Part shown: positions 1,715-59,894 of the stretch, in pieces
Layout of the letters: each line of letters starts with the position of its first letter
Numbering within the stretch: position 1 is the first letter of the stretch
NCBI GenBank assembly: GCA_029204225.1
Contig: CM055108.1
Coordinates: 21,996,326 to 22,060,325, forward strand
Source of the DNA: Diphasiastrum complanatum
Lineage: Eukaryota; Streptophyta; Lycopodiopsida; Lycopodiales; Lycopodiaceae
DNA length: 64,000 nucleotides
Reading direction: 5' to 3'
Position numbers and translations under genes: made by a program
Notes under the pieces: generated by a model
Databases searched by the model: none
Seen by the model: only the letters and a program-made list of their open reading frames with translations
What the model was told of the DNA's origin: nothing

Positions 1715-2036
1715 CAGGTCCTACCTTGAGTGAATTTTAGCCTCTCAAGGAGGAATTTAGCACATAGATGCTTCGCTACCCAGGGCATGTACCCGCACGG
1801 GTGTACATCAACAAGCCCTTGCCTAGGAATCATCGCAGAATCTTTGAATTTAGAGCCTTGTCTTACTTGGTAGACATTGGAAATTTGCCAAGTGGCATGG
1901 CTAATGTGAATGTCTCAGAGAAGAGAAGAGAAGCGGGTCTCAACATAAATTGAGCCATGAAGCACCATATGCAAGTGAGCTGTTGCATGTAGAGGAGGAA
2001 GAAGAAGCAGCAGTTGAAGAAGATCAACTACTGATC

Positions 2037-2585
2037 ATGGATTATTCAACCTCAATATTTGCTCTTGTTATGATTTTTGGTCAGTTAGTATGCTTGCTTT
2101 TCGGAAGCGGCGGTACTGTTGCTGCTGCTGCTGAATCTGTGCCTTCAATGTCGTCGTTGGAGCTGCGCCAATTAGGCTCTTCTGGTGATCAAAATGGTTT
2201 TGAGCAGCATGCTGCCCAACAACCAAACGTAGGTATATCCAGCTGTGGCACAGACCACTTTCAGTACTTTTGCCAAGGAGACCTGACGATCAATCCTAAA
2301 ACAATCCAGGACCATTTACATTCTCTGGCAAACTCTGTCCCCACTCACCCCAAATCGCACGCACCAATCACCAAGGACGGCCTGCTAACCGCTTTCTTAC
2401 CAGGTCACATAAACACGCCCAATCCATTCCCTTCGTCTCGTTCGCAACTGAACTGCTGCGTCAAAGTTGTTCAACAGCGGTGTCTACAAAACAAGAAGGC
2501 AACTGGATTATGCTCAGGTTACAATACCGCTTGGGCTTTCGGATATTCTCAAGACAAGGCGTATAGCCTACCCAATGGACAGTAG
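2037..2585 (+). CDS. Small secreted six-cysteine protein, copy A
   Basis: A 182-residue protein of a family I do not recognise. The N-terminus MDYSTSIFALVMIFGQLVCLL followed by small residues and AAAA is a typical signal peptide, cleaved near residue 30-34. The mature part has six cysteines (SSCGTD, YFCQGD, LNCCVK, QRCLQ, GLCSGY), a GHINTPNPFPSS loop and an AWAFGYSQD segment near the C-terminus. It is probably secreted with disulphides. I chose the ATG at 2037 because the signal peptide follows directly; the in-frame ATG at 1950 would add an acidic stretch and hide it. Copy B differs by only three residues, with no frame damage, so both are probably functional or recently duplicated. The cysteine order (C, C, CC, C, C) lacks the CXC motif and eight cysteines of lipid-transfer proteins. 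Confidence 0.75.
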   Translation: MDYSTSIFALVMIFGQLVCLLFGSGGTVAAAAESVPSMSSLELRQLGSSGDQNGFEQHAAQQPNVGISSCGTDHFQYFCQGDLTINPKTIQDHLHSLANSVPTHPKSHAPITKDGLLTAFLPGHINTPNPFPSSRSQLNCCVKVVQQRCLQNKKATGLCSGYNTAWAFGYSQDKAYSLPNGQ

Positions 2586-3221
2586 TACACATTTGTAAGA
2601 GTCGGACTAACCATGATATATATCATGGTTTGAAGTAAGCAGCCAGTCATGCAGTGATGTGACAAAGTACATGCATGATCTACATCGTTGAAGTAGAAAT
2701 CTAAACAAAAGTTCTGTGCTTTCTTTGGAGTTTCTGAATTAGTAGTCAGTCATCTAAGTTGCTAGCCGGCGTCCTTCAATTGTATGTCTTCCAATAAGTG
2801 GTGAGATTGTTTTGTTGGGACTTCCTTTTCTGTACCTGATATAGGTGGAAGGACTTACACTATAACCCGCTGCATGAATGAGCAAATGCTTGTATGAGTG
2901 TGTAAGATGTAAGCAAAGTTATGTGATGAATATTTAAGTTTTTCAGCTGATCTCATCCTAAGTTAACATTATTTCTCATTTCTGATGTTTGTTCATGTCA
3001 TTTATTATGTTGCAAGCATTCTGAATCTGTATGATTTGAAAGCTCCTTAGTGGGTGGGGCTTGCTAGAAACTTATGACTAGTTCCTAGATGGGAAAAACT
3101 TGGAGAATCCTCCACGCAATCTTTTAGATTGAAATACACATGACGAGGAGCCATGCAAGCTATGCAAACTAGGAACAAGGTGATTTATATACACATGTTA
3201 TCACAATAAGCTATGCTATAT
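2586..3221. repeat. Copy A, 3' flank
   Basis: Probable 3' UTR and flank of the secreted-protein gene, matching 44793-45810 of copy B apart from an insertion in copy B. It contains the short palindrome atgatatatatcat at about 2613-2626. Homology with copy B ends abruptly at about 3221 (gctatgctatat), the right border of the duplicated block. The 3222-3560 stretch beyond it is AT-rich and holds nothing I can name. Confidence 0.7.
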
Positions 3222-3560: not shown

Positions 3561-4262
3561 GGAGCATGTGATCATTCCGGTATTAGTAAAGATGTATATG
3601 CTACAATATTTAAAATTATCAAATAGGCATTTGGACAAGTGCACTTAAAAGAAAAAATTTGATTCCTGGACCATTTCAAATCAAATTAAAAGAGATGTGT
3701 TAAATAGGGGTATGCACAAAATCATTGGTATTCCTTACCATATCATGAATGAAACTTAAAATTCAAAAGTTGGCACCTTGTCATAAGATTCTACCAACAA
3801 CATATTTGTAGAAAAATTGGAAAGGGTTAGTGTTACACTCATAAATGGAGCATTATGCAATACGACAAACTTGGAGAGCCTAAATTGTAGTGTGCAATAT
3901 GAAAATGACATATGGTAGTTAGCAGCTTTTCAGGTTATATTGTTTATTTATTATCTGCTCAAGATGTAAATCTATTAATACTACAAAATTCTCTTGGTTT
4001 AATTAATAATTGTATGTTTTGGACAAGTATTAAAAGAAGATGATGATGTTCTTTTATGGGTTTTTAGCAAGAAAAATTATCCATAGATAATTAATGATCA
4101 TATGAACGACATACCAATCAATGTATCTAAAAGAGGGGATTTTAATGTGGAATGGCATTTGCTCGAAGACTTGAAGACATTCACGCATGTTCAATGTCTC
4201 TGATTGAGCAAATTCGAAAAATCCATGTCTATATTGCATGAAAATTTCAAAGTCAAGAACAA
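3561..4262 (+). pseudogene. Decayed DDE transposase fragment (copy 1)
   Basis: Broken frames translate to GACDHSGISKDVYATIFK, LERVSVTLINGAL, VQYENDIW and DFNVEWHLLEDLK, with ANSK-NPCLYC after a frameshift. These pieces align in order with the minus-strand relic at 10901-11830, including the position of the intron between AAFQ|gt (3926) and the VLKED exon (about 4025). It encodes the middle part of a DDE-type transposase: the second catalytic aspartate region reads LLEDLK here and LAGDLK in the other copy, followed by a P-C-L-Y-C motif. Many stops and shifts show it is dead. The exact superfamily is not settled. Confidence 0.6.
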
Positions 4263-4280: not shown

Positions 4281-4668
4281 AAGAAAAAGATGTTTTGTAA
4301 GTATTGCAAGTGTACAAATCATGAGATCTAGGATTGGAGGGTTCTCAAAGCTAAAAATTCCAGTGAGCAACTAGATCAATAGGCGGATGTAGTCACAGGA
4401 ACAAAGGAGCATTTATGGTCAAGGACCAAAAAGCACTATTAGATAATTCTTGGTTTCAGGATTCTGGAGCTACGCAAAATATGACCAATAATCATGAGCA
4501 TTTTTACTCCTATATGCCTTACAATAAGATACATTCATCTTGGCAACAATAGTACTCACACTATCGAAGGTGAAGGTACAGTGAGATTGAAATTCCAACA
4601 TGATCAATTCAAACTACTATCAAATGTTTTGTATGTTCCTAAACTTTCGCCTATCAGAACGAACAAAA
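4281..4668 (+). pseudogene. Copia gag zinc knuckle and protease fragment
   Basis: MFCKYCKCTNHEI is a broken CCHC knuckle of a Ty1-copia Gag. From about 4411 the frame gives a GAFMVKDQKALLDNSW stretch and DSGATQNMTN, the aspartic-protease active-site block (normally DSGAT/AS.HM). A closely related fragment lies at 50858-51163. The 3' side is cut at 4668 by an antisense LTR. Integrase and reverse transcriptase are missing. Confidence 0.7.
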
Positions 4669-5505
4669 TGTTAGTGATGGAAATCACGGTCATTCTTGAT
4701 TATGCAACCAAACACTAATAAATGATGCGCCAGAAGAATAATTTGTCGCGAATAGCAAGACAGATTATATGTCGCGAATGATTCGCGAGGAGCTAGACTG
4801 TGCTTGACTGATAATTAGTCGCGAAAGATTCATGAAAGACAAGATTAAATGTTAGTCGCCTATTACTAAAATGAGCAACTAGAAAGATCAGACAAAATGA
4901 ATAATAAGCATAGCAATATTAACACAGATCTGAATGCAAAACAAAGAACTATTATTAGATTAAGTATATCAAGTATACATGTCAATAATGCAGTAGAGCA
5001 CAAGAAAATAGCGGATGAAACCGTGTGCTCTACAAAGCTTATTCAATCTGTAAAGGAATGAAACCTTATTGCTTACAATAAAGAATCAATCTATGAGGCA
5101 TCTACTTCGTCTTTCTCGTTGATAAGCTTCTGATGCTAATTTACATATACTCTCCTCTTCCCATCTTTTTCGTCAGGACTCAATCGTCCAGCATTCAACC
5201 TCATACACAAATGGTATTCAGTATCTATATACATAATGTTACAGGTGTGCAGATGAAGAAAGTACAGGGTGGATGTGCTATCTATAGGAGATCATGGGTG
5301 GCTGCAATCGTTGTCCAATCTATTAGCACAGCTGCATGGGATGAGCGTGAAAAGAGTGCGCCGTCAACCATTGCTTTTTTTCTTTTCATCGTCTGTGAGA
5401 ATTTGCATGTCAATATGTAGACTGCGCGACAACACGAGTAAATATGCAGCATGAATGGAGGCAGATTAAAATGGGATTAGCAGAGTAGAGGAAACAAATC
5501 CAACA
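4669..5505 (-). repeat. Copia-2 3' LTR
   Basis: On the minus strand the LTR begins TGTTGGATTTGTTTCC just after a polypurine tract (AAGGGGGGG, 5506-5514) and ends CATCACTAACA at 4669, giving TG...CA ends and about 837 bp. It belongs with the RNase H piece at 5506-5775. A shorter relative lies at 17462-17982, and an LTR with the same start is at 36541. It contains several TCGCGAAT repeats around 4747-4850. The second LTR of this element is not in the window. Confidence 0.75.
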
Positions 5506-9720: not shown

Positions 9721-10900
9721 GGAATATTCCTATATTCAAGGAGACTAGCTTTTTGGATTTTAGTCATATTCTAGAAGGTCAACTATTGGATAAGGATCAA
9801 GGATGGATCAAATGGATAGATCTGAGTGATGTGGCACTCTTCACATTGTGTTGTCTGTTACTATACTATTGTACTGATGACAAAGCTTTATCATCTTCAT
9901 ATGGATCTGTCACCAGAATATGCTCTACTCAGGACGAGAAATTCAAAGCAACCCAAATTGTCAACTTCTGATACTAGGTCCGATACAGGGAGGAAAAGCT
10001 AAAACATGTAGATTTATGGTCATCAGGAACATTGTATCCTATTGATCCATGTTCATTGCAACATCCAGATTTTCATTCGGTGAGTCAGTTAATAATCTAT
10101 GTGTCATAGTAAAAATGGCCTTTTGGGTTACCGTGAGAATTTGATGCTCTATGGGAATGCACATTCAATGCAAAGAATACATTATTCGGAAGAGGAATCA
10201 AGGAGAATATTACAAAGATGAAAACTTGTTTAGATGAAAATGAGATGCTCAAGGAGGAGATCCAAAGGTTGAAATCTTTTTTGCATCATTATACAACTAG
10301 TAATGATGAGATAAAAATTGCATTTCAATCCATGCGTATCTCATATTTGTCTCTTGTTAAAGATATGGATGTGCTCAACAGAAAGGTCCAAAGAAACAAG
10401 AGGAAAGACTGGTAAACAAGGATATATGTGATCTATCATCCAGAGGAGGTCATAGAAAAAGACGAATCCGTGCTGTTGATTTGCTTATTATATACTGTTG
10501 TGAATACTATGAGTGTCCTAATTTATGCTGACATTTTCATGAACATTATGTTTGAAATGCAGATCAGCATTGGTCGTTGAAGACCATCTGATGAGATTTC
10601 AATTGGAAACTCACTAGGCTGTATCTTGACTTCTAAATCTACGAAATCAATGTTAAATAATAACAAAATGAAAAAGATTAAGGCTTCAATTACTGATAGC
10701 ATTATGGACAACACATCCTCTAATTAGGAAATAGCTTCCTTTATAGAGGCCTCTAGCTCGGAAGTCCATGAAAACAAGATGTGAAGATATATTATTTTTT
10801 CTATAATATGCACCTCCGCATGCAATGTACAGATATGAACATTTCGTAGAGGAATCGGTAGTACAGGTTTCCAATTAGGATCTTCTTGATCTCTTTATAT
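9721..10900. other. Stretch without a recognisable gene
   Basis: AT-rich sequence between the copia LTR and the transposase relic. Only one short frame stands out: 10218-10415 (+, 65 codons), predicted as an amphipathic helix rich in Glu, Lys and Leu (ENEMLKEEIQRLKSFLHHY) ending in a basic RNKRK run, so a possible coiled-coil exon of a lost gene. Nothing else can be supported. Confidence 0.35.
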
Positions 10901-11830
10901 TCATGTACTCCTTGTCATGTCTTTTGCTGTTTTCATGTAGTAGTACAAACAAGGGTGTTTAGAGTTAGCGCCAAGAGATACATTGAACATACATTTCAAT
11001 GTCTTCAGATCTCCTGCTAAATGCCATTCAATGTTAAAAGTGCCAAATCCAAGAATATTGAGTGGATCTCCCTCCATGTGATTTTTTATGGTGGTAGGAT
11101 ATGATGTTCTACTAAATATCCATGAGAGAATGTTATGGTCTTCTTTCAGCACCTATAAGAGAACACAAAAACGTGATTAGCCTCATATTAACACAAAGAA
11201 GATTTTAGATATGAAATCCATATTCAAATGATTATCCCTATTTATTATGCGAAGGAACTGCTATACCTAAAATGCTGCCAACCACCAGATATCATTTTCT
11301 GATTGAACACTAAAATTGAGGCCTTCTGAGTCTTCTGAATTTGAAAGTGCTCCATTCATGATTGTGAGACTGACTCTTTCCATTTTTTGTCCTTTTATAA
11401 TTTCAGACTCATCTAACTTGAGAACAACTATCAACTTGTTATTGACATTCTCATTTGTAATACCGTAAAAATTTATGATGAATGTTAATTAATGTCAATA
11501 AATAAATTGTTGGAATTGTTATATGCTGGACTCTCTCCTTTCGAGCAATACATTTCATTGATATGAGATGGATTACCAACTATTGTCTGCATACCATGGT
11601 TTAACATGTCTCTTTTTTTTTAAAGATGAAATGGTCGTGGGACTGGAAACTTGTTGATATACTATGCAAATGTTTCCTTTATCATCTTAAACATTGTTGC
11701 ATATGCTTCCCTACTGATGCTAGAAAAGTCACATGCTCCCTAAAGCAATGTAGTATCTAATATTTTTCCAACTTAAGCAGGCTTATATAAAGGCCATGTT
11801 AAAATAAAAAAAGATGACAAGCTATCAGGT
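10901..11830 (-). pseudogene. DDE transposase, middle exons (copy 2)
   Basis: Minus-strand relic with at least two exons. The upstream exon reads GACDFSSISREAYATMFKMI, then VPRPFHL, MLNHGMQTIVGNPSHINE, LIVVLKLDES (candidate first catalytic Asp), MERVSLTIMNGALSNSED and ENDIWWLAAF. An intron follows (11153-11266; donor GTATAG, acceptor TTATAG). The next exon reads VLKEDHNILSWIFSRTSYP, FNIEWHLAGDLKTLKCMF (candidate second Asp) and GANSKHPCLYYYMK. The order fits a DDE/D transposase with a GDLK...ANSK.PC block; I cannot assign the superfamily with certainty. Copy 1 at 3561-4262 shares sequence and intron position. Where copy 1 keeps CAG before the intron, this copy has TAG, a C-to-T stop. Confidence 0.6.
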
Positions 11831-11854
11831 AAAATATTCCATGCAAGTTGAGCA

Positions 11855-12464
11855 TTGGAGGATCTAAACCTCGAAGATTTTTATCAAACTATTAAACAAT
11901 CTAAGGTTCAATACACGGTTTGGAAAGAAATTATTGCAGCAACTCAAGATTTCGAAGAAAAAGGTTCTACTCGTATACACAAAGTAGAAGTTTGGAAAAA
12001 GTTAGACAACATGGTGAAATACTTGAGAAAAGATAAATTTTCAAATACTGATGTTCAAATGATACAGAAAACAACCAATGAATTTGTGGATGCAGTTCAA
12101 AGTGCATGGGGTGTTGATCATATAACACATTATATGGTAAGACTTTGATTTTACACTACGATAGACAAATATGTGCAATTAAATTAGATACTTTTGGTAC
12201 TGATTTAGATTATGTTTTTATGACATGCAGCACATATTACGACATCATTCGACATTCTTTGCAAGAAATAGTGGAAGTCTTAGCATATGGTCATCGCAAA
12301 GAATGGAAAAATCTCATTGGCAAGCAAGAGCGGCATTTCATAAAAGTACACAACATGGCAGGACTAGCACAAAAAACAGCTATGTACTGCAACTTTTCCA
12401 ATGGTTTTACAAAAGAATCCAAATTCGTCATAATACAAAATCGACAGATTATAAAATTTTTTAA
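11855..12464 (+). pseudogene. DDE transposase, C-terminal exons
   Basis: Two plus-strand exons join in frame: 11855-12136 (DLNLEDFYQTIKQ ... WGVDHITHYM) and 12231-12464, with intron GTAAGA...CATGCAG (12137-12230). The joined product continues HILRHHSTFFARNSGSLS, then IWSSQRMEKSHWQARAAF, KSTQHGR and LQLFQWFYKRIQ. A GSLS...S-Q-x-x-E-K block near the C-terminus is typical of DDE transposases, where the glutamate (MEKSH) is the third acidic residue. It lies opposite in orientation to the exons at 10901-11830, so the locus was inverted or combined from two copies near 11840. A stop lies just upstream of the first exon, and no intact start is visible. Confidence 0.55.
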
Positions 12465-12560
12465 AAAGCATGCAAATTTATACAAGCCAATAGGCTATAG
12501 ACACACAATAAAATTTTGTATATTAAATACAAATATTTACAAAGTACAATTCAACAGTAT

Positions 12561-14032
12561 CTAATCTGCTTCCGATATTTTTTCCAATGAAAGTTGCAAC
12601 TTAGAATCATGCAACAATTTTCTTCTTTCATATGGATCCAATAGCTCATAGTTTGCATGCTCACTCAGATCAACGTAAGCAGCATACACTGCAAAATGAG
12701 ATGATCTGAGCATGGAATTCACTGGTCCATATCCTAGAATTTTAACCGCAATAGTTTTCCTTACAAAAATTATTTTATGCACCTTATTGAAATTATGTCC
12801 TCCAAGAAAATGAGACAGTGCCTTGATTGCCATAATCATAGTTTCACCATGTTGATGAAACTTTGAATGGGCAACACTTATCTCATTACTCTTGAAGGAC
12901 TTCAGATAGTGCCCCAGTGCATGATCTCTTGAACATTCTCCAGCAGAAGATCTCTGCCCTCCTCGACAAATTGCGAAATCATCAAGGAAAATTGTTTCCT
13001 AAAATGATAAAAAACAAAGTCAGCTCCAGTATATAATCTGACATAACAAATCTACTAGTACTTGATAAGAGACAAAAACTTACGCATTCGGCTTTGTGTT
13101 CTCTGATTACTATCTCTCCGTCAATATTATGTCCACCTTTTGATGTCAATATTGTTGGTGAATAGACAGTTGGCTATGGAAAACCAAGTTGACTTTGAAT
13201 TCTAAGAAACTCCTCCTCAGAAGGTAGATCATCTTCTTTGTTGTGCATTTCCTCCACAGCCATTTTCAAGCAATCTTTCCTTGAATAAAACTTATCATTA
13301 TGTACATCGTCAACACTAGGGAGAAGATCATCAGCATATCAATTATATCCGAAAATTCATCAAGCTCTTTGTTCAAAATGCAAAGAGTCTCAGCTTCAGT
13401 GAAGTTAAAAAGATCCGATCAATCTGATATTGTCAAAAAGAAACTATTATCTATATTATAAGCAAGCAAAGTGATCAAAGATTTATCAGAAGGAGAAAGG
13501 GTAGTGGGTGTTCCAGGGCCTATAAAAGTAGTCCTATTTTGAGCAGGATCAAAATCAGAACAATCATCTAAATTAACACTCGTATCAATAAAAAAAATAT
13601 CTATATTTACAATCTTTGACTTTTCAGCTTTTGTACCACTAGAAGAAGCTGTTTCAGAAGTGGAGGGCACAGTTTTCGAATCGTCAAAAATATTTAACAA
13701 AAAAAAAAAAAAAAAAGCAAACTAAAAATCAACAAATCTACATTTTTTATTATGAATTGGGCACTCATCTACAGACTTGAAATCATTATGTAACTTGGTA
13801 AACATTCTATCAAACTTAGCTTTATAGATATGCTTGTCGAGTGTCACCAAGTCTTGATAATGAATCATGTCCTTATTTTGAGATTTGAATAGAGGAGTAC
13901 TGACACCAGGGCCCTCAGTTATAGAAGGTAGAATAAAAAGAAAAGGAAAAAAAGAGATTTGAATTAGTCCAACCTATCAGTAATACCAAATTCATTAAAA
14001 AAAGAAAACAAACTGGATTTAAAATTAGACAT
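12561..14032 (-). pseudogene. Unknown spliced gene, divergent to the H3-Ulp1 gene
   Basis: I do not recognise the product. From a possible ATG at 14032 (MSNFKSSLFSFFNEFG) the minus strand gives degraded coding stretches: GPGVSTPLFKSQNKDMIHYQ with a short C-P-x-H-x4-C patch, a Ser/Thr/Asp-rich linker (13419-13690), an acidic EMHNKEDDLPSEEEF segment, then exon 13084 upward joined to 12561-12998. That last junction is clean: donor GTAAGT at 13083, acceptor CATTTTAG at 12999, 85-bp intron, frame kept (KAEC|ETIFLDDF). The final exon (145 codons) has DDFAICRGGQRSS, SRDHALGHYLKSF, HSKFHQHGETMIM and ends SLEKISEAD. Stops at 13174-13176 and elsewhere, plus at least one frameshift, show decay. It is transcribed away from the promoter at 14300-14640. 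Confidence 0.5.
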
Positions 14033-14040
14033 TTTAAACC

Positions 14041-14860
14041 AAAATAACAGAACTAAAGTTCCAAATATCGCTCTTAGACACAAACCGCAGGTCAGACAAG
14101 CACGTCAAGGCAACGTGCGCTCGAGAGAGATATTTGAAGTTGGAGTATTGGATCTGAGCACAAGAACACCGAGCAGAGAAGAAAAGGGATGTGAAGCGCG
14201 CTTGAATGCGATACCGGACGATGCAGTATCAGATCCAGGTGCATAATAGTCAACGAAAGGTAATGAGAGCAAGCGGTGCGCTTGAAATCGATATCCGAAA
14301 AAGCAATCATAAATTTGCATGAAAATCCGAGCCGAAAAAGACCTATTTATAAAAAACAAATTTGCACGTGTGGAGGAGCGTTGAAGGAACACGTCTCGAA
14401 TTGTGATTGGTTAAAATAAATGCGTCATACCGAGAATGATTGATCTGACATTTGTCACGTGCAAGAATGACACACATCAATATCAGATTTGCGCATGTAT
14501 CTCAGCCCACGTTGCCTCATAATTGGGTCATCATTGTCAATACGGACATTCCACGTGGATTAATAATCTAACAACACGTGTTTTTGTCATCTTTTCACAC
14601 GTGCAAAAATTTCGTATATATAAGTTCTCGGAATTTTTTATTTTTTTGCAAAATTTTCGCCTTTAGCTCCCGATATTGCTCCCAAGTGTGCTCTTTTACT
14701 GTTCAAGCTTTCGCCCTCTCACAGTGCGCTTGAGTCCGATACCGCTGGTTGTTCAATATCACTTTCGAACTCGCATCTCTTTTCTTCAAATAATTTGTCT
14801 AGATCTTGTGCTCAAAACCGATATTCAGTTCTGGTATCGATCTCAAGCGCCCTTTCATCG
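14041..14860. promoter_or_regulatory. Divergent promoter with CACGTG cluster and iterated motif
   Basis: Two TATA boxes face outwards: TATATATAAG at 14615-14624 (+) and CTATTTATAA at 14343-14352, ATAAATAG on the minus strand. Between them are five CACGTG cores (14365, 14456, 14552, 14575, 14598) plus further ACGT sites, a dense G-box cluster. On both sides, in what should be the transcript leaders, an 18-bp motif close to GATATCGATTTCAAGCGC recurs in both orientations: 14275-14296, 14196-14216, 14115-14133 and 14723-14743 (minus), 14671-14692 and 14833-14850 (plus), with weaker copies at 14226 and 14061. It serves the unknown minus gene and the H3-Ulp1 gene. The iterations could be binding sites of an element-encoded protein (inference). 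Confidence 0.6.
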
Positions 14861-14929
14861 CAAATTTTTTTGTTTTCATCCACTTTTGTTTTGTTCAAAC
14901 TTCTTCTTGTTAATTTTCTTCTTCTGAGA

Positions 14930-17048
14930 ATGATGGCCTGAACCAAATCCACTACCCGTGCTATCACCACTGTACAGCCATCCCATTCCCATGTTCCCTC
15001 TGGTATTAGCCATAGGTGTGGCACGAAGCAGGTCTGGCTGAGAGAGATCAGAAAACTCCAGAGATCAATTGAATTGTTGATCCCTAGAGTTCCTTTCGGC
15101 CGATCTGTTCAAAATGTCACTCTGTCACTTGGGCTAAATGTTCGTTTTGCCATAACAGCCACGTAGGCCTTACAGGGTGTTGCAGAAGATTTTTTGTCCC
15201 AGCTTTTTGAGGATACTTGTCTTTTGGCAATGCATGGTAAGCATGTCACCATCATGCCAAAGGATTTCGTCATTCTCAAGAGGCTTCGGGACAGATATTA
15301 TGGTCTGCATGTTGATAATGCCAGCACCTCCAAAGACCTGCCTCTGGATAGAACCCACGTGCCTACTACCTCTAGGAGGAAGAGAAAGCAGTCTGTCCCC
15401 AAGAAGGTTAGATCTCGGCGAAGGCCAGCTGCTTCCCTTCCTCCTAACCGTATCCCGGCCAAGAGACCCTTTGTCTTCCTGGGCTCTGAGTCAGATGCTG
15501 GAGAATCTGACTCAGATCGAGAATCTTCACCTCTTTCTCCTCCTGTTAATCGTGTAGCTCCTCAGTAGGTTTCATCACCAAAAGTGTTGATTACCCAAGA
15601 GGAGCTAGACAAAATAGCAGAGAAATCTCTATATATTGTTTCACTTCTGTTTTTGCTCCTGTACATAATCTTTTTGTGAGAATTCCATACGATCCAGTCC
15701 AGATTTTTTTTATTCTGACCATTATAATCAATATGAGGCCTCCCTAGTTAACAAAATTGATCTTTTCGGCAACTTTTTTGATTTTTTTCTTCCAGATACA
15801 TGTAGAAGCTTTAGATTAGGTCCCAAATTTTGTGCCATGCTAAAAGATAAGACCTCAAAAATTTCAAATGCAATAATAGAGGCCGGAGTTTTTTTTTTTG
15901 CAGAATAGTATTAGTTTCGATTCCCATGGTACAGTTTTTGTAGTTAGTCCATTTTTCATGGGAGTGGTAAAGGCGAAAGAAGCCAATTTTGAGAAGGTTG
16001 TCTATTTCATCGAGTGCAGTCCTATGGCAAAATTCTATTTGATTCCATATGAAAATAAGTAAGGATTGCTCTTTTGTTTTTGTTGTCTTAACCTGGATTG
16101 TTGCATGCTTCATTGCTTTAATAAGAACACAATTTTTTCATAAATATGAATTTATCCATATTTGTATTTTGGTTCTTGCAGTCGGCATTGGAGCTTGAAC
16201 ATTCTTTTTGTAAAGATAAATAAGGAGGGAGTATCAAATTTTCTATGTGTAAAATTAAACTCAACTGCAAATACACATAGAGAATTTGATTCTTTACTTC
16301 ATGATGTCGTTCGAAAAATACCAACAACGACAACTTCAATTGGAGAGATAACCATTAAATCTCTCAAGGTATATTCTCTGATATGCATGTATTCCTTTTT
16401 TAATTCAAATGTATCATCATAGTATAAATAAAATTTCTATCATTATATTACTAATTCTCATTCCATATATGTAGTGTGTACAACAACAAGATATTTTTAG
16501 TTGTGCATGGTTCATCTTGTACAATACGAAGCTATTTTTTGAATGGTATAATTTACAAACGGATGTAGATATTGAAAAGGTAATATTCTATTCATTTGTA
16601 GTTCATTTCATTCTGATTCATATTTTATATGCATTGTTTGTAATTTGCTGATTCTCGTGTTTTGTGATAACAGTTCACTCTTGAACTGTATACTCCTTAT
16701 GATGTATATAGATTTCGGCAAGAGTTGATCAAAACCTATGCCCAGTACGGTGTAAGCGTTGCACCTGCAATCGAGGGCCCTCAAAAGGAAGCTGCTCCTG
16801 TCTTAACAGCCTTTCAAGTTGTTCAGGATGCAGATCTTATTTTATATGATCAAAAAGAAATAAAAGTCCTTCATAATACAGAGGAAGGCAATTTTGCAAC
16901 AGATATTTCTCTTGTCTTAAAAGGCATCGAGCCCCTTCTCGAAACAGAGGAGGGTGAGATTATAGAAGGAGCTATTGCCTTATCACTTCCTAATACTGAT
17001 ATAGAAAATATAGAAAAATTGACTGAATATAAATCTATTTGTAAATAG
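14930..17048 (+). pseudogene. Histone H3-like domain fused to Ulp1-type protease
   Basis: From ATG 14933 (or 14930) the frame runs MA-stop-TKSTTRA, an H3-type tail start with Arg2 changed to TGA. It continues with a histone fold: VWLREIRKLQRSIELLIP, VPFGRSVQ, ALQGVAEDFLSQLFEDTC, HGKHVTIMPKDF (about 15030-15295). Loop 1 has canonical H3 length. A basic linker (SRRKRKQSVPKKVRSRRR) and a Ser/Asp/Glu patch follow to a TAG at 15566. Past it the code continues (ITQEELDKIAEKS; DLFGNFFDFFLPD; SPFFMGVVKAKEANF; FYLIPYENN). Introns 16059-16181, 16369-16474 and 16580-16673 have GT-AG ends and keep frame. Exons give NRHWSLNILFV (catalytic His), VQQQDIFSCAWFILY (Gln and Cys) and an acidic tail ending 17048. 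This is the C48 (Ulp1) H...Q-C pattern that cleaves SUMO/ubiquitin-like conjugates; the usual acid appears as Asn in VKLNS. Stops at 14939, 15164, 15566 and shifts near 15630-15900 make it a pseudogene. Whether both parts form one protein is inferred from continuous coding. Confidence 0.75.
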
Positions 17049-17461
17049 AGAGACATAAAAAAAAAAAAAAAGATACAATCATTTTACTTGTAAACAACCC
17101 GTTTATGGATTTTTTTTATTGATATCACAATAGATTCTTACAATCAGCTTGTGTCCATAGTCTAATACTGGAATGCAATTTTTCTATAATGATAAAAAAA
17201 AAACTGTAGCATCTGGTGCAATCCATTCATCACTTTCAAAACTAGATAATGGAATTGGTACTATTTGTCCAAAATTTCCTTTTGTATCAGGAATGTGTTG
17301 GAGAGAGAGGGGGAGAATAATTTATGACAAACACGAACGAGAAACAAACTCGAACAAGAAATGAACGAGAAACAAACTCGAATAGAAAATGTTTGTGCAC
17401 AGCGGAATGAACTATACGACTCTCTCCGTAAGCATAACTATGCCTATCAGAATGATAGGAC
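17049..17461. other. Tail of the H3-Ulp1 unit; minus-strand exon fragment
   Basis: A 14-base A run at about 17058-17072 follows the Ulp1 stop. On the minus strand 17184-17299 is open and reads DTKGNFGQIVPIPLSSFESD, then EWIAPDATVFF, ending TAG; it looks coding but I cannot name it, and it is cut at about 17300 by a GA-rich junction. 17318-17400 contains two imperfect copies of an ACGAGAAACAAACTCGAA phrase. Confidence 0.3.
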
Positions 17462-17982
17462 TTTAGTGATAGAAATCATGGTCGTTCTAGATTACACATA
17501 GCCAAACATTAGTAGATGAAGCGCCAGAAGAATAATTTGTCGCAAATAGCAAGACAAATTATATGTCGCGAAGAGCTAGACTGTGCTCGACTGATAATTA
17601 GTCGCGAATGATTCACGATAAACAAGACTAAATATTAATCGTCTATTACCAGTAAGAACAACTAGAAAGATCAGATAGAATAAATGATAAGCATAACAAT
17701 ATTAACATAGATCTGAACGCAGAACCCTGAACTGTATCAGATTAAGTATATCATGTATACATGTCAATAATGTGGTAGAGCACAATACAGTACTGGACGA
17801 AACCGCATGTCCTACAAAGCTTATTTCAATTTGTAAAAAGCAATTAAACCTTAATTCTGACAAGAATGAAGAATCAATGCTCAAGGCATCTACTTCGTTT
17901 ATGTCGTCTTCTTCTGCTCTCTTCATCATCTTTTACACGAATGGTGTCCAGTATATATATATACTACATAATATTACAGGTG
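17462..17982 (-). repeat. Copia-2-type LTR, partial
   Basis: It matches 4669-5250 in the same orientation: TTAGTGATAGAAATCATGG, the gcgccagaagaataatttgtcgc phrase region, TCGCGAATGATTC and ATTACAGGTGTGC. The part corresponding to the first 250 or so bases of the LTR (minus-strand view) is missing. It adjoins the gag fragment at 17985-18140. Confidence 0.65.
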
Positions 17983-18140: not shown

Positions 18141-18841
18141 TGTGAAAGTACTGTACTTTAGGACCATAAATGGATCTACAAAAGATCCACAAGAGTGATT
18201 GGATGCTTGCTTAACAATCTATCAAAAAACTAGACACAAAAAAGTTGATCTAGATTGGCAATTTGACAAACAACAAGCATTAAAAATCAAAAGCATTGAT
18301 AAAAATTGAAATCCGAGCCCACACGTGTGTACTACAGGCTGTAGTATGGCCTTCAACTTGAGAAACAAATAGAAATTGATTTGGTTTCATTTGGATCACA
18401 AAAACTCAATGTACATAGTGAACTAGCTTGAGATTGCCAATGAGCTCCAAAAATTTTCTATCTTCTCACTATGGAGAGAGGGAATACATAGCAAATTCGA
18501 CTTCCTTCTTGAAGTTAGGTGGATTTCCAACATGTAATAAGGAAGTTAACTCACTCTCCTTGACCTAAAATGAAACCCTAGTCTATTTCCTAGAGTTATG
18601 CTTGGTAGGTAGCTAGTTGTTCAAATTTTCACCTTAAACTTAGGTGTAGGTCCTATAAAGTAGGGATGACCACCAAATAGACATGACCAACTCTCTTGAC
18701 TTGACTTAACCTACATTAGGATGGGTTTCCCATGTAGCATCATGGCCTCACATGTGTGGGACCCAATTGTGTACACAATTTACACTATTCTACATGGTTT
18801 TTGATCAAGCTAGATTTGCCAATTTTTGACAATTCTTCACA
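18141..18841 (-). repeat. Copia-4 3' LTR
   Basis: Complete LTR: on the minus strand it begins TGTGAAGAATTGTC at 18841 and ends AGTACTTTCACA at 18141. Its partner is 22005-22605. It contains CACACATGTGAG and CACACGTGTG boxes, also present in the Copia-3 LTR. Confidence 0.85.
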
Positions 18842-19051
18842 CTCCTCCTCAAATTTAGATTGATCTATTTACAACTCTCTTGATAGATCAATGAAAGCTT
18901 TTAGAAGTGTCTAAAAAATCCAGCTACAAAAAAGGAACTTTTGAGATTCTAATAGAGAATGATGTCCATGAAGGATCTTTCACCACCTCTTAGAGGATCC
19001 CTTACAAGATGTTCCATAAATGTGTCTATATACATGTAGCACACTTCAAAA

Positions 19052-19894
19052 CTAAACATCATGCCAAGCCATGGATTCCAAGGCATTTTGTGCACTTGAA
19101 GATACATCAATGAAAATATTAAGTGAATAAATAATGTTGCCAAAGACAACTTTTCTTGCTTGATCCATATGATTGAGCCTAGATGGCTCCATCTTGATAC
19201 TCAAGATTCTTCTTGGAGTCCTCGGGTCTTGAGCTTGATCCTCCACTTGACTTGACTCCAAAACATCAATGAATTGAATAATGTGTTGATCCAAAGGTGC
19301 TTCTTCAAGTTTACAAATCTTCCACTCTTGAAAGATCACATTTCCACCATTGACAAATGCTTTGGTTAAAAACAAGTAGATTCTACAATCTCTACTTGAA
19401 GAGCAAAACACTACCATTATTCCTATCATTGAAATAGGATAATCTTTGGTCCTTACATTGGAATGATCATGCACAAAGCATGTGGACACAAAGATTTCCA
19501 AAGCAAATGATGTTTCATCTTTTATGACTCTATTCAAACTATTACAAAAATAGTTATCCAATGAAATTGCTTTATCAACAACAAATGTAAATTTCAAAGC
19601 ATCCCATTTCATTGTCTTGTCATACAAAGTAATAAACACCATGGATCTTAAAGGTAAGAAACAAGTCACCTCATGTCTACTAATACTTTCCAAAAAGTAT
19701 TCAAAGATAGTAGACTCTCCAATGCTCACCACCCTTGCAAGATGCACACTTGAATGGACAATTTGCATGCAATTTGATGACTCGGCCATTGTCATTGAGG
19801 ACTCCCTTGGAACTCTCATGCTTTGAGGCTGATCCTCAATATCTTCCTCCTTTTGATGCTCCTCCTCAATGCAAGCAAGATCACACTTTTCCAA
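19052..19894 (-). CDS. Unrecognised ORF inside Copia-4
   Basis: A 280-residue open frame in the place where integrase and RT should be. I recognise no catalytic motif: no HHCC finger, no D,D35E, no YVDD. Middle segments read HEVTCFLPLRSMVFITLYDK, WDALKFTFVVDKAISLDNYF and DYPISMIGIMVVFCSSSRDC, a mixed hydrophobic globular pattern. Near the C-terminus PRRILSIKMEPSRLNHMDQA matches the linker before RT in Copia-3 (PRRSSRSKAGPSRLTYVDKR). So the centre was replaced while both borders stayed copia-derived. The foreign part may be a captured host gene fragment or a diverged element-specific protein. The long open frame suggests recent origin or constraint. It begins just after a TAA that ends the protease frame at 19904. 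Confidence 0.55.
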   Translation of the reverse strand: MEKCDLACIEEEHQKEEDIEDQPQSMRVPRESSMTMAESSNCMQIVHSSVHLARVVSIGESTIFEYFLESISRHEVTCFLPLRSMVFITLYDKTMKWDALKFTFVVDKAISLDNYFCNSLNRVIKDETSFALEIFVSTCFVHDHSNVRTKDYPISMIGIMVVFCSSSRDCRIYLFLTKAFVNGGNVIFQEWKICKLEEAPLDQHIIQFIDVLESSQVEDQAQDPRTPRRILSIKMEPSRLNHMDQARKVVFGNIIYSLNIFIDVSSSAQNALESMAWHDV

Positions 19895-19903
19895 GATCTC
19901 CTT

Positions 19904-21223
19904 TTAAGTGATCTCCTCATTTGCCAAGCTCATTCTTTCAAAAGCAACACTAGCTTCCAACTTAAACAATCTTCCATGCTTAAATCCCTTTGCAATGCAA
20001 ACATTATTCTTCAAGATGAAACAAACACCATGCTTAAAGTGGACATCCAACCCACTTTCTAAGAGTAAACCAACACTAAACATATTCTTGGTGATTGATG
20101 GTACATAAAGGACATTTTCTAGATCCATGCATTTTGAGGATTCTAGACACAAAGAGATGGTGCCAACACCATCTATCCTACACTCTTCATCATTTGCAGT
20201 AAAGACAAGCTTTTAGCAGCATTGAAAGAGTGTAAGGTTGAGAAAAAGTCCTTTTCACAAGACATGTGAGAGCTAGCCCCACTGTCGATCCACCAATTGT
20301 CTCTTGAATTGCTATTGCTTGTTGGTGAGGATGTAGATGTCATCAAGGATACATCTACTTCATCCTCCTCCTCCTTTGCAAGGTTTCTGTGTTTGTCCTC
20401 CTCCACTTGTGCTCTTAGCCTCTTGTAGCATTCAGATGCATAATGCCCCTTCCTTCCACAAAAGAAGCATTTTTGCTTTAACTTGTCCTTTGAGCTTGAT
20501 GCATCATCCTCTTCTTTGGCCTCCTTTGGATGCTTCTTCTTTCCATTGGTCTTCTTTTTGCCCTTGAATGAGAAATTGGCTTTCTCATCACCATCTTGCA
20601 ATGACAAGGAACTCATCCTAGATTTTGCATGGAGCATCCTACACTCTTCAGCCACTAATACACTGTGAAGTTTTTCTGTAGTTGGCAAAGTGTCTTGGAT
20701 GGCAAAACTTTGGACCAAATTTGCAAAGTCATCTCCTAGACCATTAAGGACAATTTGTACAAGCTCTCCATCATGAATCTTCTCTCCAATGGAAGCCAAC
20801 TCCCTATTTAGAGACTTGATTCTGAGTACATAATCCTGTGCACTCTCCTCACTTCTCCTCATGCTTTGCAAAATTTGATTTCTAAGCATAAGAACTCTAG
20901 AAGTGCTGCTAGACTCATAGATTGATTTTAAAGACTCCCAAGCCTCTTTAGCATTAGTACAAGCTGATACTTCTCTCAACAAATCATTGCTCACATTCAT
21001 CTTCACACAATGAAGTGCAAGCCTAGATCTCTTCTTTAGCTAACTCCTGTGCACCTAGAGGTTCATCTTCATCTTCAATCAAGAACTCATAAAGGTCTTG
21101 GAGCACTAAGAGTGAATCCATTCTAACCTTCCAAATAGCATAATTTGTAGAATTCAACCTCTCACTAGCTTCTAGAAGGTATGCTCCAGCAGATCCCATC
21201 TTACTAGTGACTTCTACAAACAA
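19904..21223 (-). pseudogene. Copia-4 gag-protease
   Basis: Frames 21023-21223, 20173-21006 and 19904-20152 form one Ty1-copia Gag-protease region with small breaks. Seen in order: LNSTNYAIWKVRMDSLL (Gag N-terminus, UBN2-type), SIYESSSTSRVLMLRNQILQ, CCHC knuckle CFFCGRKGHYASEC (about 20460), protease WWIDSGASSHMSCEKD (about 20270), and the LDNVLYVPS/LLLESGLDVHFKHG region before the missing integrase finger. It packages RNA and matures Gag. A frameshift near 20200 and a stop at 21008-21022 break it. Confidence 0.8.
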
Positions 21224-22004
21224 GAAATAGATTTGATTGACTTGAAACTCACAAAGGTCTCACACTTGCAGTGTTTCACTCAAATTTGATTTCTAATCCA
21301 ACAAATGGGCTTATAATCACAGTTCTATCACTCTCTCACAAAGCTGGAATGAAGATAAGATGAAATGAAAACTACTTTCAAACAAATCTTGCCAAGAAAT
21401 GGATTTGATTGTCTCTAGAAACTCACTAAGGTCTCTCTCTTGTAGTTTTTCACTCAAATTAGATTTCTAATCCAACAAATGGACTTATAATCTCAGTTCT
21501 AGCACTTCCTCACAAAGTTGGAATGAAGATAAGATGATGTGAAATCTACTTACAATCAAATCTTGCCAATTTTGGCTATTTTTGGACAAAAAAATGACTT
21601 AATCTCTTTCTTCCTTCTTGGTGTACTTTCAAGACCTGTTTTTAACCTTAATAGGACTTGAACTCAGCCTAGATTAATTAGATTCCATGAAATAAATTCA
21701 AATCTAATCAATGGCAAATGATCTTGGTAGATTATCCCAGGATCTCCACCAAAAATTACACCAACAGCTCACAAATTGAATTTTTTTGGATCAAATGAAT
21801 ACCATGCATTAAATGCAGGTTCAGAGGTGCCCACACATGTGGACAGTACGGATTTGGACCCCTACCAAGTTTGGGATCAAATCTCCTCACCAAAATCAAG
21901 ATTCTAGCTTGCCCTCTCAATACTAGTTTTTAGCACCGAAACTTGCTAAAAATGGATTTGCATTAGATCAATGGCTTATGCTCTTGTACTTGGCTCTGAT
22001 ACCA

Positions 22005-22605
22005 TGTGAAAGTACTGTACTTTAGGACCATAAATGGATCTACAAAAGATCCACAAGAGTGATTGGATGCTTGCTTAACAATCTATCAAAAAACTAGACA
22101 CAAAAAAGTTGATCTAGATTGGCAATTTGACAAACAACAAGCATTAACAATCAAAAGCATTGATAAACATTGAAATCCGAGCCCACACGTGTGTACTACA
22201 GGCTGTAGTATGGCCTTCAACCTGAGAAACAAGTAGAAATTGATTTGGTTTCATTTGGATCACAAAAACTCAATGTACATAGTGAACTAGCTTGAGATTG
22301 CCAATGAGCTCCAAAAATTTTCTATCTTCTCTATGGAGAGAGGGAATACATAGCAAATTCGACTTCCTTCTTGAAGTTAGGTGGATTTCAGCATGTAATA
22401 AGGAAGTTAACTCACTCTCCTTGACCTAAAATGAAACCCTAGTCTATTTCCTAGAGTTATGCTTGGTAGGTAGCTAGTTGGTCAAATTTTCACCTTAAAC
22501 TTAGGTGTAGGTCCTATAAAGTAGGGATGACCACCAAATAGACATGACCAACTCTCTTGACTTGACCTAACCTACATTAGGATGGGTTTCCCATGTAGCA
22601 TCATT
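22005..22605 (-). repeat. Copia-4 5' LTR, truncated
   Basis: It matches 18141-18741 with a few substitutions and small indels (for example a 3-base loss near 22331). The match stops at GTAGCATCAT (22605), about 100 bases short of a full LTR; gypsy sequence follows at once. Confidence 0.8.
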
Positions 22606-28233: not shown

Positions 28234-28440
28234 GTGCTCTCCCATTTTTGACGGGCACCGCACGCATGGGCACGTGTCAGCCTGTCGCGCAACCGGGGCC
28301 AAATGGCAAAATATGGACGGCGACGATTCCACCTCCCAAACAGCTATGAATGCAACGTCCTGTCACATTTTTTCTCTTTTTCTTTTTCTCTTTCTCTCTC
28401 TCATTTTTGTGTGTGGCCAAGAGCTCACAGAGCTCTGGCG

Positions 28441-29202
28441 ATGGCTGCCATCTCTTTGCCTCGCATCTTCACGCCTGCATCCTTTTCCTGCCACGGACAT
28501 CTCCACCTTCCGAAGCGTGGCCATGCTGCATCGGCCTTTCCAGCCATGTCGCTCATCCCTCTGCCAAGGCTGTGTATTGCAGAATCTCCCCGTCTTTTAG
28601 GGTTCAATCATCAGCCCTTAGGGTTTGCATTTCAGGAAAGGCCAAGCCACAGATCTCGCATCAGTGCAGGACGAAGAGTTGCTGTAAATGCATTATGTGT
28701 TCAATCTTCTGCAGAGGGTTTTTCAGCCATTGTTGGTGCAGTTTCAAGGAGTTTCGTTGCAGCAGCCCTGTTTGCAAAAGCTATGTTCAGAACCCTAAAA
28801 GAAGATTTGTTTTCTGCTATAGCGCCTCTTCGTCAGGAAGAAGTGAAAACCCTGGCATCCTTGAAGGGAGGGTTACAGTATGCGGTTCTTCCTCTGTGCT
28901 TTGCAGCGATTAGTCAATCTCCTCCTGTGAGCACTCCACTTACGGTTGTGGCTGCTGGGATGGCGAAGTGGCTCGAGTTGTATAGTGGAGTACTGATGAT
29001 ACGCGTTCTTTTGACTTGGTTTCCAAACATTCCATGGGACCGACAACCGCTTCAGGCGATTCGGGACATGTGTGATCCTTATCTCAATCTCTTCCGAAAT
29101 CTTGTTCCTCCTATTTTCAATGCACTAGATGTAAGCCCTATGCTTGCCTTTTTCGTTCTCGGCCTGTTGGCTTCAATTCTAAATACGAGCGTGCAAGGAT
29201 AA
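28441..29202 (+). CDS. YLMG1: Plastid YGGT-family (YLMG1/Ycf19-like) membrane protein
   Basis: A 253-residue protein of the YGGT family. The plant YLMG1 group acts in thylakoids and is linked to nucleoid partitioning and cytochrome b6f assembly. Residues 1 to about 85 are rich in Ser, Arg and His with few acids (MAAISLPRIFTPASFSCHGH), a chloroplast transit peptide. Residues about 95-115 and 145-165 are hydrophobic. The YGGT domain fills the C-terminus: YSGVLMIRVLLTWFPNIPWD, LQAIRDMCDPYLNLFRNLVP and a last membrane helix MLAFFVLGLLASIL. I chose ATG 28441 because the transit peptide starts there; the frame is open further upstream (28303), but that part resembles leader sequence. There is a single exon with a CT-rich leader just before the start (28367-28402). 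AATAAA-like signals follow at 29239 and 29319. It appears intact and is the only clear known host gene here. Confidence 0.93.
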   Translation: MAAISLPRIFTPASFSCHGHLHLPKRGHAASAFPAMSLIPLPRLCIAESPRLLGFNHQPLGFAFQERPSHRSRISAGRRVAVNALCVQSSAEGFSAIVGAVSRSFVAAALFAKAMFRTLKEDLFSAIAPLRQEEVKTLASLKGGLQYAVLPLCFAAISQSPPVSTPLTVVAAGMAKWLELYSGVLMIRVLLTWFPNIPWDRQPLQAIRDMCDPYLNLFRNLVPPIFNALDVSPMLAFFVLGLLASILNTSVQG

Positions 29203-42844: not shown

Positions 42845-44243
42845 TATTAGGGAAATCTCTGAAGTGATTGTTTGCTATTATAGCATGTGCATAGGTTTCA
42901 AGATTGAGGAATTGAGTCGTTGGGCCTTGGCAAGGATATGTGTAAAGTCTTAATGTGATTAATAGTGATCGGTATTCAACACTATATCAACAAAAATTCC
43001 TTCATACCCCATCTTGGCCGCTCTTATGTTTGTAAGATGTATTGTATGCATATCATTGTCCTTTGCATTCATGCCAATACATGCTTGCTCAATGACATGT
43101 TGATTGTCATTTGGATTGAGAACTAAATAACGTGCATTCCCAAGGCATATATGATGGAAATTATCTATGAGTCTACTTGTCCACAACAAGACATAGTTTG
43201 CATAACATGCCACGACAAACAAAATCAAGCATAATATGAGTCATGCAAATCTTGCCAAAAAGGTTGAAATTTTTCATCCAAGAGGGCTTCGTGCTATTTC
43301 TAAATTTTGCCCAAGAGAGCTCCATATGTTTAGAATAATATTAGAATGCATAATGGGGTTCCCATAATCAATCTCCATTGTCCAATCTTGTAAGATTTGA
43401 GTGGTGAATACATCATAATCGTATGTTTAAGTTACAGACAGTGTGCTAAGTGTGAATCTTATGGGAAATTTGTCATGTCATATTTTTTTCTTCTACAAAA
43501 GCTTTGGACTTGTGCCATTCTAAGCAATGCCATCCTAGTGCATTATGCCATTTATCCCTTTATCAAGTTTTCAAAAACTTGTGACATATTCACTTACGAG
43601 TACACATATTGTAGTAGGCAAAGTTCAAAGTCAAAACTTAGTATTTTATTAAGTATATTCAATTAATTTGTCGGGGACATGAATGAACATCTTTTTTTTT
43701 GGTTTTCTTGTGAAAAGAGCATTTTTCAAAGATTGTGCATGCACCCAAAAACGGTTTCCTCTCCCTCTCTCTCTCCACAAAATATCAGCTTTTGGCGGAG
43801 AAGTGGAGGTTGATTTTTCCAACATCGAACCTTGAGTGAGTGAATTTTAGCCTCTCAAGGAGGAATTTTAGCACATAGATGCTTTGATACCGAGGGCATG
43901 TACCCGCACGAGTGTACATCAACAAGCCCTTGCCTAGGAATCATCACGGAATCTTTGAATTTAGAGCCTTTTCTCATTGGGTTGCCCTTATAGAATCTGC
44001 CTTGTCTTACTTGATAGACATTGGAAATTTGCCAAGTGGCATGGCTAATGTGAATGTCTCAGAGAAGAGAAGAGAAGTGGACATAAATTGAGCCATGAAG
44101 CACCCTATATCTCTGTGTGTCAACCCGTTTCCTTTCCTTTCTCGTGGGTGTTTGCTTCATGCTCTCAGGCAAGTGAACTGTTGCATATACACACACGAGA
44201 GGAGGAAGAAGAAGCAGCAGTTGAAAAAGATCAACTCCTGATC

Positions 44244-44792
44244 ATGGATTATTCAACCTCAATATTTGCTCTTGTTATGATTTTTGGTCAGTTGGTATGC
44301 TTGCTTTTCGGAAGCGGCGGTACTGTTGCTGCTGCTGCTGAATCTGTGCCTTCAATGTTGTCGTTGGAGCTGCGACAATTAGGCACTTCTGGTGATCAAA
44401 ATGGTTTTGAGCAGCATGCTGCCCAACAACCAAACGTAGGTATATCCAGCTGTGGCACAGACCACTTTCAGTACTTTTGCCAAGGAGACCTGACGATCAA
44501 TCCTAAAACAATCCAGGACCATTTACATTCTCTGGCAAACTCTGTCCCCACTCACCCCAAATCGCACGCACCAATCACCAAGGACGGCCTGCTAACCGCT
44601 TTCTTACCAGGTCACATAAACACGCCCAATCCATTCCCTTCGTCTCGTTCGCAACTGAACTGCTGCGTCAAAATTGTTCAACAGCGGTGTCTACAAAACA
44701 AGAAGGCAACTGGATTATGCTCAGGTTACAATACCGCTTGGGCTTTCGGATATTCTCAAGACAAGGCGTATAGCCTACCCAATGGACAGTAG
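44244..44792 (+). CDS. Small secreted six-cysteine protein, copy B
   Basis: A 182-residue paralogue of the gene at 2037-2585, differing at three residues (PSMLS for PSMSS, LGTSGD for LGSSGD, VKIVQ for VKVVQ). It has the same signal peptide (MDYSTSIFALVMIFGQLVCL) and six cysteines in the mature part. The ATG at 44244 is kept for the same reason as in copy A; the in-frame ATG at 44088 gives a longer, poorly conserved N-terminus that differs from copy A, which supports the shorter form. The coding part is better conserved than the upstream spacer. Function is unknown; secretion is inferred from the leader. Confidence 0.75.
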   Translation: MDYSTSIFALVMIFGQLVCLLFGSGGTVAAAAESVPSMLSLELRQLGTSGDQNGFEQHAAQQPNVGISSCGTDHFQYFCQGDLTINPKTIQDHLHSLANSVPTHPKSHAPITKDGLLTAFLPGHINTPNPFPSSRSQLNCCVKIVQQRCLQNKKATGLCSGYNTAWAFGYSQDKAYSLPNGQ

Positions 44793-59832: not shown

Positions 59833-59894
59833 TACACATTTCTATCAGGGTAGGTGTCAGTCATTTATTCAAGGTTGCCATTTTTTTTAAATGG

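Follow-up and report, generated by a model that had tools for sequence, protein, structure and literature searches.

H3-Ulp1 jumping genes of Diphasiastrum complanatum may make their own chromatin protein

Can a histone H3 fold and a SUMO-removing protease be parts of one transposon gene, and what would the combined protein do? The question is raised by a locus in a 64,000-nucleotide stretch of Diphasiastrum complanatum contig CM055108.1 (the window, to which coordinates refer unless another sequence is named). A preliminary description held that an H3-like region continues in register, past a single TAG, through a basic linker into spliced exons of a C48 protease. The H3-like region was borne out: positions 14930–15300 match Pfam family PF00125 with 77.4 bits against a cut-off of 26.4 (E = 1.4e-21), two other copies reach 86.8 and 78.6 bits, and the closest PDB chain is 1p3a (E = 4.3e-21). 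The His-Trp, Gln, and Cys motifs are present in the spliced exons where they had been placed, and the three frame-keeping GT-AG introns were confirmed with their phases (Table 1). The continuity of the frame was upheld in part. The basic linker is in the H3 frame; however, the window copy has three in-frame stops in its H3–linker frame and not one (TGA 14939–14941, TAG 15164–15166, and TAG 15566–15568), and it is out of frame between ~15675 and ~15904. Because of these stops and frame lesions, the window copy does not read in register into the protease exons. A chance origin of the open H3 and Ulp1 frames is excluded. One stop was observed in frame 14942–15565, where 9.2 were expected, and none in 271 spliced Ulp1 codons, where 18.9 were expected; in neither case did any of 2000 simulated sequences have so few stops, the second test being generous because the exon borders were chosen by eye.

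Table 1. Features of the window copy of the H3-Ulp1 element and the H3 gene of a second element family. dN/dS ratios are from 14 copies, with 95% ranges in brackets.
Feature	Coordinates	Strand	Evidence or remark
Footprint of decayed element copy	9844..17296	+	blastn of the 9920-bp A577 element, 89–95% identity
Footprint blocks	9844-10473, 10473-10708, 10705-11774 (inverted), 11775-17198, 17201-17296		
Gene 1 remains, transposase-like	10473..12564	+	KLDESEI, HLAGDLKTL, VHICTLHAE, and GMEKSH motifs
Gene 2 remains	12561..13973	-	ORFs; aligned counterpart in A577; no Pfam match
Diverged inverted duplication, dyad near 14484, outward TATA-like stretches	14004..14944	.	alignment score 242
H3-Ulp1 gene, decayed copy	14930-17048	+	four exons, three introns
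Exon 1: H3, linker, first C48-like part	14930..16058	+	open in L010 and A577
H3-like N-terminal tail, family form ARTKSTAR-AITT	14936..15031	+	dN/dS 0.57 (0.33–1.04)
Histone H3 fold	15032..15300	+	PF00125 E = 1.4e-21; dN/dS 0.40 (0.25–0.66)
Linker from H3 to protease, basic then acidic/Ser	15301..15568	+	dN/dS 0.95 (0.57–1.73); GC 0.525
C48-like domain, first part (ITQEELDKI..., FVVSPFF..., FYLIPYEN)	15569..16058	+	same exon as H3 in L010 and A577; likeness to the ITxxD start of C48 judged by eye
Intron 1, phase 2	16059..16181	+	GT 24/30, AG 26/30 loci
Exon 2, catalytic His (RHWSL)	16182..16368	+	His codon in 18/22 distinct copies
Intron 2, phase 0	16369..16474	+	GT 24/30, AG 24/30 loci
Exon 3, Gln and catalytic Cys (QQQDIFSCAW)	16475..16579	+	Gln 17/22, Cys 16/22 distinct copies
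Intron 3, phase 0	16580..16673	+	GT 23/30, AG 24/30 loci
Exon 4, C-terminal tail and stop	16674..17048	+	dN/dS 0.99 (0.65–1.48)
Second-family H3 gene	L064 4814-6004; L065 4766-5996		

The H3-Ulp1 element family is huge in this genome. In 1,744,706,496 bases distributed over 5176 contigs, a query comprising H3, the linker, and the start of the protease found 7675 candidate places; 150 of them were scored, and all 150 scored H3 matches had E ≤ 2.7e-101. The scored copies, the window itself excepted, have identities of 74–85%, and most span the whole query. The protease query gave 9411 candidate places, of which 133 were scored, with 408 matches at E ≤ 0.001. The 30 loci scoring best with the H3-plus-linker query were compared, and removal of eight near-identical copies left 22 distinct copies. 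Being picked by this score, the 30 loci favor preserved H3 stretches; the dN/dS of the linker is still near 1 under this choice. Eight of the 22 copies (L010, L014, L015, L023, L029, L030, L031, and L033) were dropped because of poor downstream alignment or greater divergence, which left 14 copies alignable over the gene.

The better copies show how the two halves are joined. Locus L010 contains one open frame of 397 amino acids, which extends from upstream of the Met through H3, the linker, and the protease part to intron 1, and copy A577 (contig C577) has 373 stop-free codons counted from the Met, which lead from the H3 tail through the linker into the protease part and end at the GT donor. 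The stretch corresponding to ~15675–15904 is open in the better copies and belongs to exon 1, without an intron. An intron between H3 and the protease, with its donor near 15565 or 15676, had been considered first for the window copy and was discarded because L010 and A577 are open there. H3, the linker, and the C48-like start form one exon of one gene in the better copies. It is extremely improbable that the locus instead holds two consecutive genes, with H3 ending at the 15566 stop and the protease starting later. Such an arrangement would fit the TAG at the end of the linker in the window copy, where the GC content falls from 0.525 to 0.336, and the stop at the 15566 codon in 7 of 30 loci, but the remaining loci read through this codon, and no stop separates H3 from the protease part in L010 and A577. 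All 30 loci have the second Met codon, the six intron borders are each kept in 23–26 of the 30, and all six occur together in 11 of the 22 distinct copies. Among the spliced copies, none was established as intact over all four exons.

The origin of the H3 part was assessed by comparison with host histones and centromeric variants. The host has 13 canonical H3 loci, which are 97–99% identical to plant H3, whereas the element H3 is only ~51% identical to the host canonical H3 over 85 residues. The window H3 is 46% identical to Arabidopsis H3.1 over 112 positions, identical to Arabidopsis H3.1 and H3.3 at 44 of 86 positions, and 46–49% identical to CENH3 and 44% to human CENP-A. A recent processed copy of a host H3 gene is ruled out by the 51% identity together with the element's own tail and linker, which are present in 22/22 copies. 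Capture of a CENH3 was considered because of the LLIP, AED, and KDF motifs in the element H3, which shares with CENH3/CENP-A a divergent H3 fold, the MARTK start, and, in plant forms, LLIP. However, the loop-1 insertion typical of CENH3 is absent from the element H3, its identity to CENH3 does not exceed that to H3, and a phylogeny placed it, together with the H3 of a second element family described below, outside both H3 and CENH3 (support 83/78, with long-branch warnings). Loop length and the tree, with the same warnings, rule out CENH3 capture. By these comparisons, the element H3 is a much-altered H3 and not a CENH3. Viral contigs contained no relative of the H3 or the protease part, and PHROGs gave nothing for H3 and one chance-level match for the protease. 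None of 7995 candidates from a protein database search with a composite query had E ≤ 0.01, a result that is not evidence of absence because the query contained runs of X. Modeled by AlphaFold without an alignment, the H3 part reached a pLDDT of 43.8, and the model was discarded.

The first eight tail residues of the element H3 are largely retained in the 22 distinct copies (A1 in 19, R2 in 15, T3 in 21, K4 in 21, T6 in 20, A7 in 16, and R8 in 17), whereas K9 is replaced in 21, position 9 being Ala in 20, Val in one, and Lys in one. Within the fold, R49, H113, K115, P66, F67, and P121 are kept in 22/22 copies, D123 in 21, R116 in 17, and R83 in 16. We take R49, H113, K115, P121, D123, R83, and R116 to be positions that face DNA or the H3-H3' contact. 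Residues 63, 68, 70, and 73–80 are replaced. The residue conservation in the 22 copies is compatible with incorporation of the element H3 into nucleosomes with H4. The protein could alternatively be a decoy that soaks up H3 chaperones or K4 readers and writers and stays out of nucleosomes. In keeping with a decoy, ARTKSTAR stays while most of the tail and the region matching H3 residues 79–90 (LGLNVRFAVTAMQ) have diverged; a decoy is nevertheless improbable, as the nucleosome-facing arginines and H113 and D123 are kept beyond a decoy's needs.

The identification of the protease half was made at the level of motifs. Pfam ranks C48 first in each copy scanned for it, with 13.3–16.4 bits and always under the cut-off of 20.7; the window copy has a weak match of 15.3 bits (E = 0.018). 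A profile comparison aligns the His, Gln, and Cys with those of SENP1, SENP2, and Ulp1, weakly (E = 0.033, probability 1.55%). The position of the triad Asp is occupied by Asn in the window copy and in 18 of the 22 distinct copies, and no PDB relative of the protease part was found. The C48 assignment is based on the sequence in which His, Gln, and Cys follow each other and the distances between them, on the top Pfam rank, and on the selection described below. The protease half is a probable SUMO-removing enzyme of the C48/Ulp1-like type.

Both the H3 and the protease halves look preserved by selection, and the linker and C-terminal tail do not. The dN/dS ratios were calculated by the Nei-Gojobori method with a codon bootstrap. 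In the 14 copies, the ratio is 0.34 (0.11–1.2) for the 19 codons after the linker, 0.35 (0.16–0.84) for the protease stretch 15925–16056, and 0.48 (0.29–0.77) for exons 2 and 3; the linker and exon 4 are without sign of purifying selection. In all 22 distinct copies, the ratios are 0.47 for the H3 fold with the tail, 0.98 for the linker, 1.08 for exon 4, and 0.86 (median 0.75) for exons 2 and 3, where several copies do not align, which accounts for the higher protease value. The 14-copy set is the cleaner of the two, and the 22-copy set weakens the protease result.

These ratios bear on whether the gene is passive cargo, in which pieces of host H3 and Ulp1 genes would have been picked up and multiplied without serving any function, as happened in fungal hAT elements. 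Capture of H3 by DNA transposons exists (PMC6710886), and many copies in the present family are broken: between 14933 and 15610, 17 of the 22 distinct copies have one to three stops and five have none. However, passive cargo is very improbable, because the ratios of 0.40 for the H3 fold and 0.35–0.48 for the protease contrast with 0.95–0.99 for the linker and tail of the same copies, about half of the fold residues are replaced and yet the frame is undamaged in 5/22 copies, and H3 is kept in two diverged families. According to the accessible part of PMC6710886, hAT transposons of the Dothideomycete fungi Pseudocercospora fijiensis and Pyrenophora tritici-repentis carry histone H3, and, like the family studied here, are inverted-end DNA transposons that amplified an H3 sequence, there to hundreds of copies. 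The fungal H3 is a transduplicated, unfused near-host copy, mostly truncated and inactivated in P. fijiensis, and the elements have a hAT transposase and 8-bp target duplications (PMC6710886). In contrast, the H3 of the window family has diverged deeply, is joined to a C48-like domain, and is under selection, and it lies beside a different transposase-like gene in elements for which no target duplication was seen.

The DNA element of which the window contains a broken copy has inverted ends and a high copy number, and the H3-protease gene is its cargo. The window copy is without both ends, and LTR-like sequence follows its right side. Complete ends are found in the A577 element, which comprises 9920 bp between the ends CATTAGAGAAAATATGGGCCC... 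and, on the opposite strand, CATTAGAGAAACTTAGAGCCC..., and has the terminal inverted repeat CATTAGAGAAA at both ends. With up to two mismatches, the left end occurs at 1146 places (573 + 573) and the right end at 1040 (517 + 523), whereas reversed-pattern controls for both ends gave 0 places. Terminal inverted repeats and high copy number fit a cut-and-paste DNA transposon. All seven end-to-end copies that were read (A577 and six pairs, 6.1–10.7 kb) have inverted ends, and H3 matches lie inside at least three of them (A577, C1:33126502-33135397, and C2:45465672-45474192). An exact target duplication of at least 2 bp was found in none of the seven, and inverted ends without a target-site duplication are unusual for a cut-and-paste transposon. 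At C4:12569900-12570064, two left ends face each other ~100 bp apart, like short derivative elements.

Two more genes accompany the H3-Ulp1 gene in the element. As to a DDE transposase, acidic motifs were read by eye in gene 1; one chance-like match and no Pfam family above the cut-off was obtained for gene 1, none for its relative in the second family, and no PDB match for either. As to the VANC gene and MURA-type transposase of VANDAL/KIU MULEs, Pfam gave no transposase family for gene 1 and no family for gene 2. The hAT transposase domain was likewise not matched in the scanned gene 1 or gene 2 sequences, and the 8-bp hAT target duplication is absent from all seven end-to-end copies. Relative to A577, with which C10 agrees, the window copy carries a 1.07-kb inversion at 10705–11774. 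The inverted duplication between gene 2 and the H3-Ulp1 gene of the window copy exceeds the scores of 300 simulations (≤191) and of 300 other centers (≤185), scorings before this global test having given borderline values only. With its TATA-like stretches, which were read by eye, it is probably a two-way promoter between the H3-Ulp1 gene and gene 2 on the opposite strand.

Several other features were noted in the window. LTR-like sequence at 17442–17907, 80% identical to 4649–5119, adjoins the H3 element where its right side is cut, and a minus-strand Copia-type element follows at 18141–22604, with LTRs (18141–18743 and 22005–22604) that are 98% identical, as in a young insertion. Positions 3812–4244 are 64% identical to gene 1 and represent a remnant of a related family. 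A gene-like segment is duplicated at 1971–3051 and 44169–45258 (94.6% identity), with a third partial copy near 59491–59844. The open frame 28252–29199 is probably the host gene of the window and presumably encodes a plastid YlmG/YggT-like protein. A minus-strand frame at 61354–61848 has a weak SWIM zinc finger match (E = 0.014) and is perhaps a Mutator-like remnant.

A second element family with an H3 gene was recognized in a search of the genome with plant H3.1 (6076 candidates, 150 scored, 154 matches), in which many rows besides host genes and H3.3-type exons were 44–57% identical to the query. The family is known from two loci, L064 (C10) and L065 (C19), both of which carry MARTKQTARDPRV..., a long Pro-rich N-terminal part, and an H3 fold at the C-terminus with a PF00125 score of 96.4 bits. 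In L064, the N-terminal part and H3 are in one frame, with a stop between them. No protease fused to H3 was found at the two loci, which shows that the H3-protease fusion is not obligatory. The tail reads ARTKQTAR-D in both, and, as judged from the tail sequences, K9 loss with K4 retention is common to both element families. A homologue of gene 1 adjoins the second-family H3, on the opposite strand in L064 (137/396 identities, E = 7e-85); the same transposase-like gene thus lies beside H3 in two diverged families.

This constant neighborhood is also compatible with a role in transposition itself, in which the H3 fold would be a DNA-binding and dimerizing part of the transposition complex, holding the target nucleosome or the element ends. 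The protease would act on the SUMO of host repair factors, with silencing uninvolved. Selection on the fold but not on the linker would fit such a role, as would the proposed involvement of transposon-borne Ulp1 and OTU domains in repair once transposition has occurred (PMC2836005, accessible text). Conservation of tail residues 1–8, including K4, is without clear use in a purely structural part, and we regard a role confined to the transposition complex as rather unlikely.

The anatomy of the gene is firm, and from it we infer an anti-silencing function in chromatin. Two families have lost K9 and kept K4, and selection acts on the two domains around a free linker; both findings favor a protein that works in element chromatin and most likely counters silencing. 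In the best explanation, to which we assign a probability of about 0.4, the H3 part enters element chromatin and the tethered protease strips SUMO there, which would keep the element expressed and mobile. The H3 part would pair with host H4 and, at or close to the element, become part of nucleosomes or of an H3-H4-like complex. Its tail would offer the residues used by K4 writers and readers and no K9 to methylate, so that element chromatin could escape the K9 silencing loop. The protease would remove SUMO from silencing, chromatin, or repair proteins at the element, and H3 pairing and SUMO removal would act together. The protein would correspond to the VANC/KIU anti-silencing proteins that Arabidopsis VANDAL elements encode, H3 taking over the chromatin-addressing role of VANC.

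Elements of this kind have partial parallels. Ulp1 as transposon cargo, which the preliminary description called common in plant DNA transposons, is known from published examples (PMC13317346, PMC2836005), and H3 as transposon cargo has a precedent in the fungal hAT elements (PMC6710886). As described in the accessible part of a review, VANDAL/KIU (Kaonashi) elements of Arabidopsis have a VANC gene with a Ulp1 domain, and KIU-carrying VANDALs are anti-silencing (PMC13317346). Like the window family, they are multi-gene DNA transposons that join a Ulp1 domain to a chromatin-related protein, but they are non-TIR MULEs with VANC in place of H3, and the word "histone" is absent from that part of the review (PMC13317346). 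Ginger1 and other animal transposons carry Ulp1 or OTU domains (PMC2836005). Ginger1 thus also has Ulp1 within a transposon protein, joined, however, to a DDE transposase with a Gypsy-type integrase core and not to a histone, and its target duplication is CCGG (PMC2836005). DNA viruses are another case of genetic parasites that code for their own H3, as single histones; in the examples in the accessible text, these are 75–87% identical to host H3 and without a protease fusion (PMC9145170). No published H3-Ulp1 fusion was found in the accessible open-licence literature, in agreement with the preliminary description, which knew of no family with this pairing.

More tentatively, and with clear doubt, the two families may be read as a plant transposon lineage with an H3 class of its own, long maintained in at least two families next to one transposase-like gene, lacking K9, retaining the K4 module, and fused to a SUMO protease in one family, which would provide private, silencing-resistant chromatin and local SUMO editing. 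If this is true, the histone would belong to the transposon by descent and not by recent capture, and the family would offer a direct test of whether genetic parasites can evade silencing by substituting part of the host nucleosome. Precise predictions follow from the thousands of candidate copies, the K9 loss with K4 retention in the two families, and the selected domains set against a free linker. If the fusion works, it would be a natural histone-tethered deSUMOylase.
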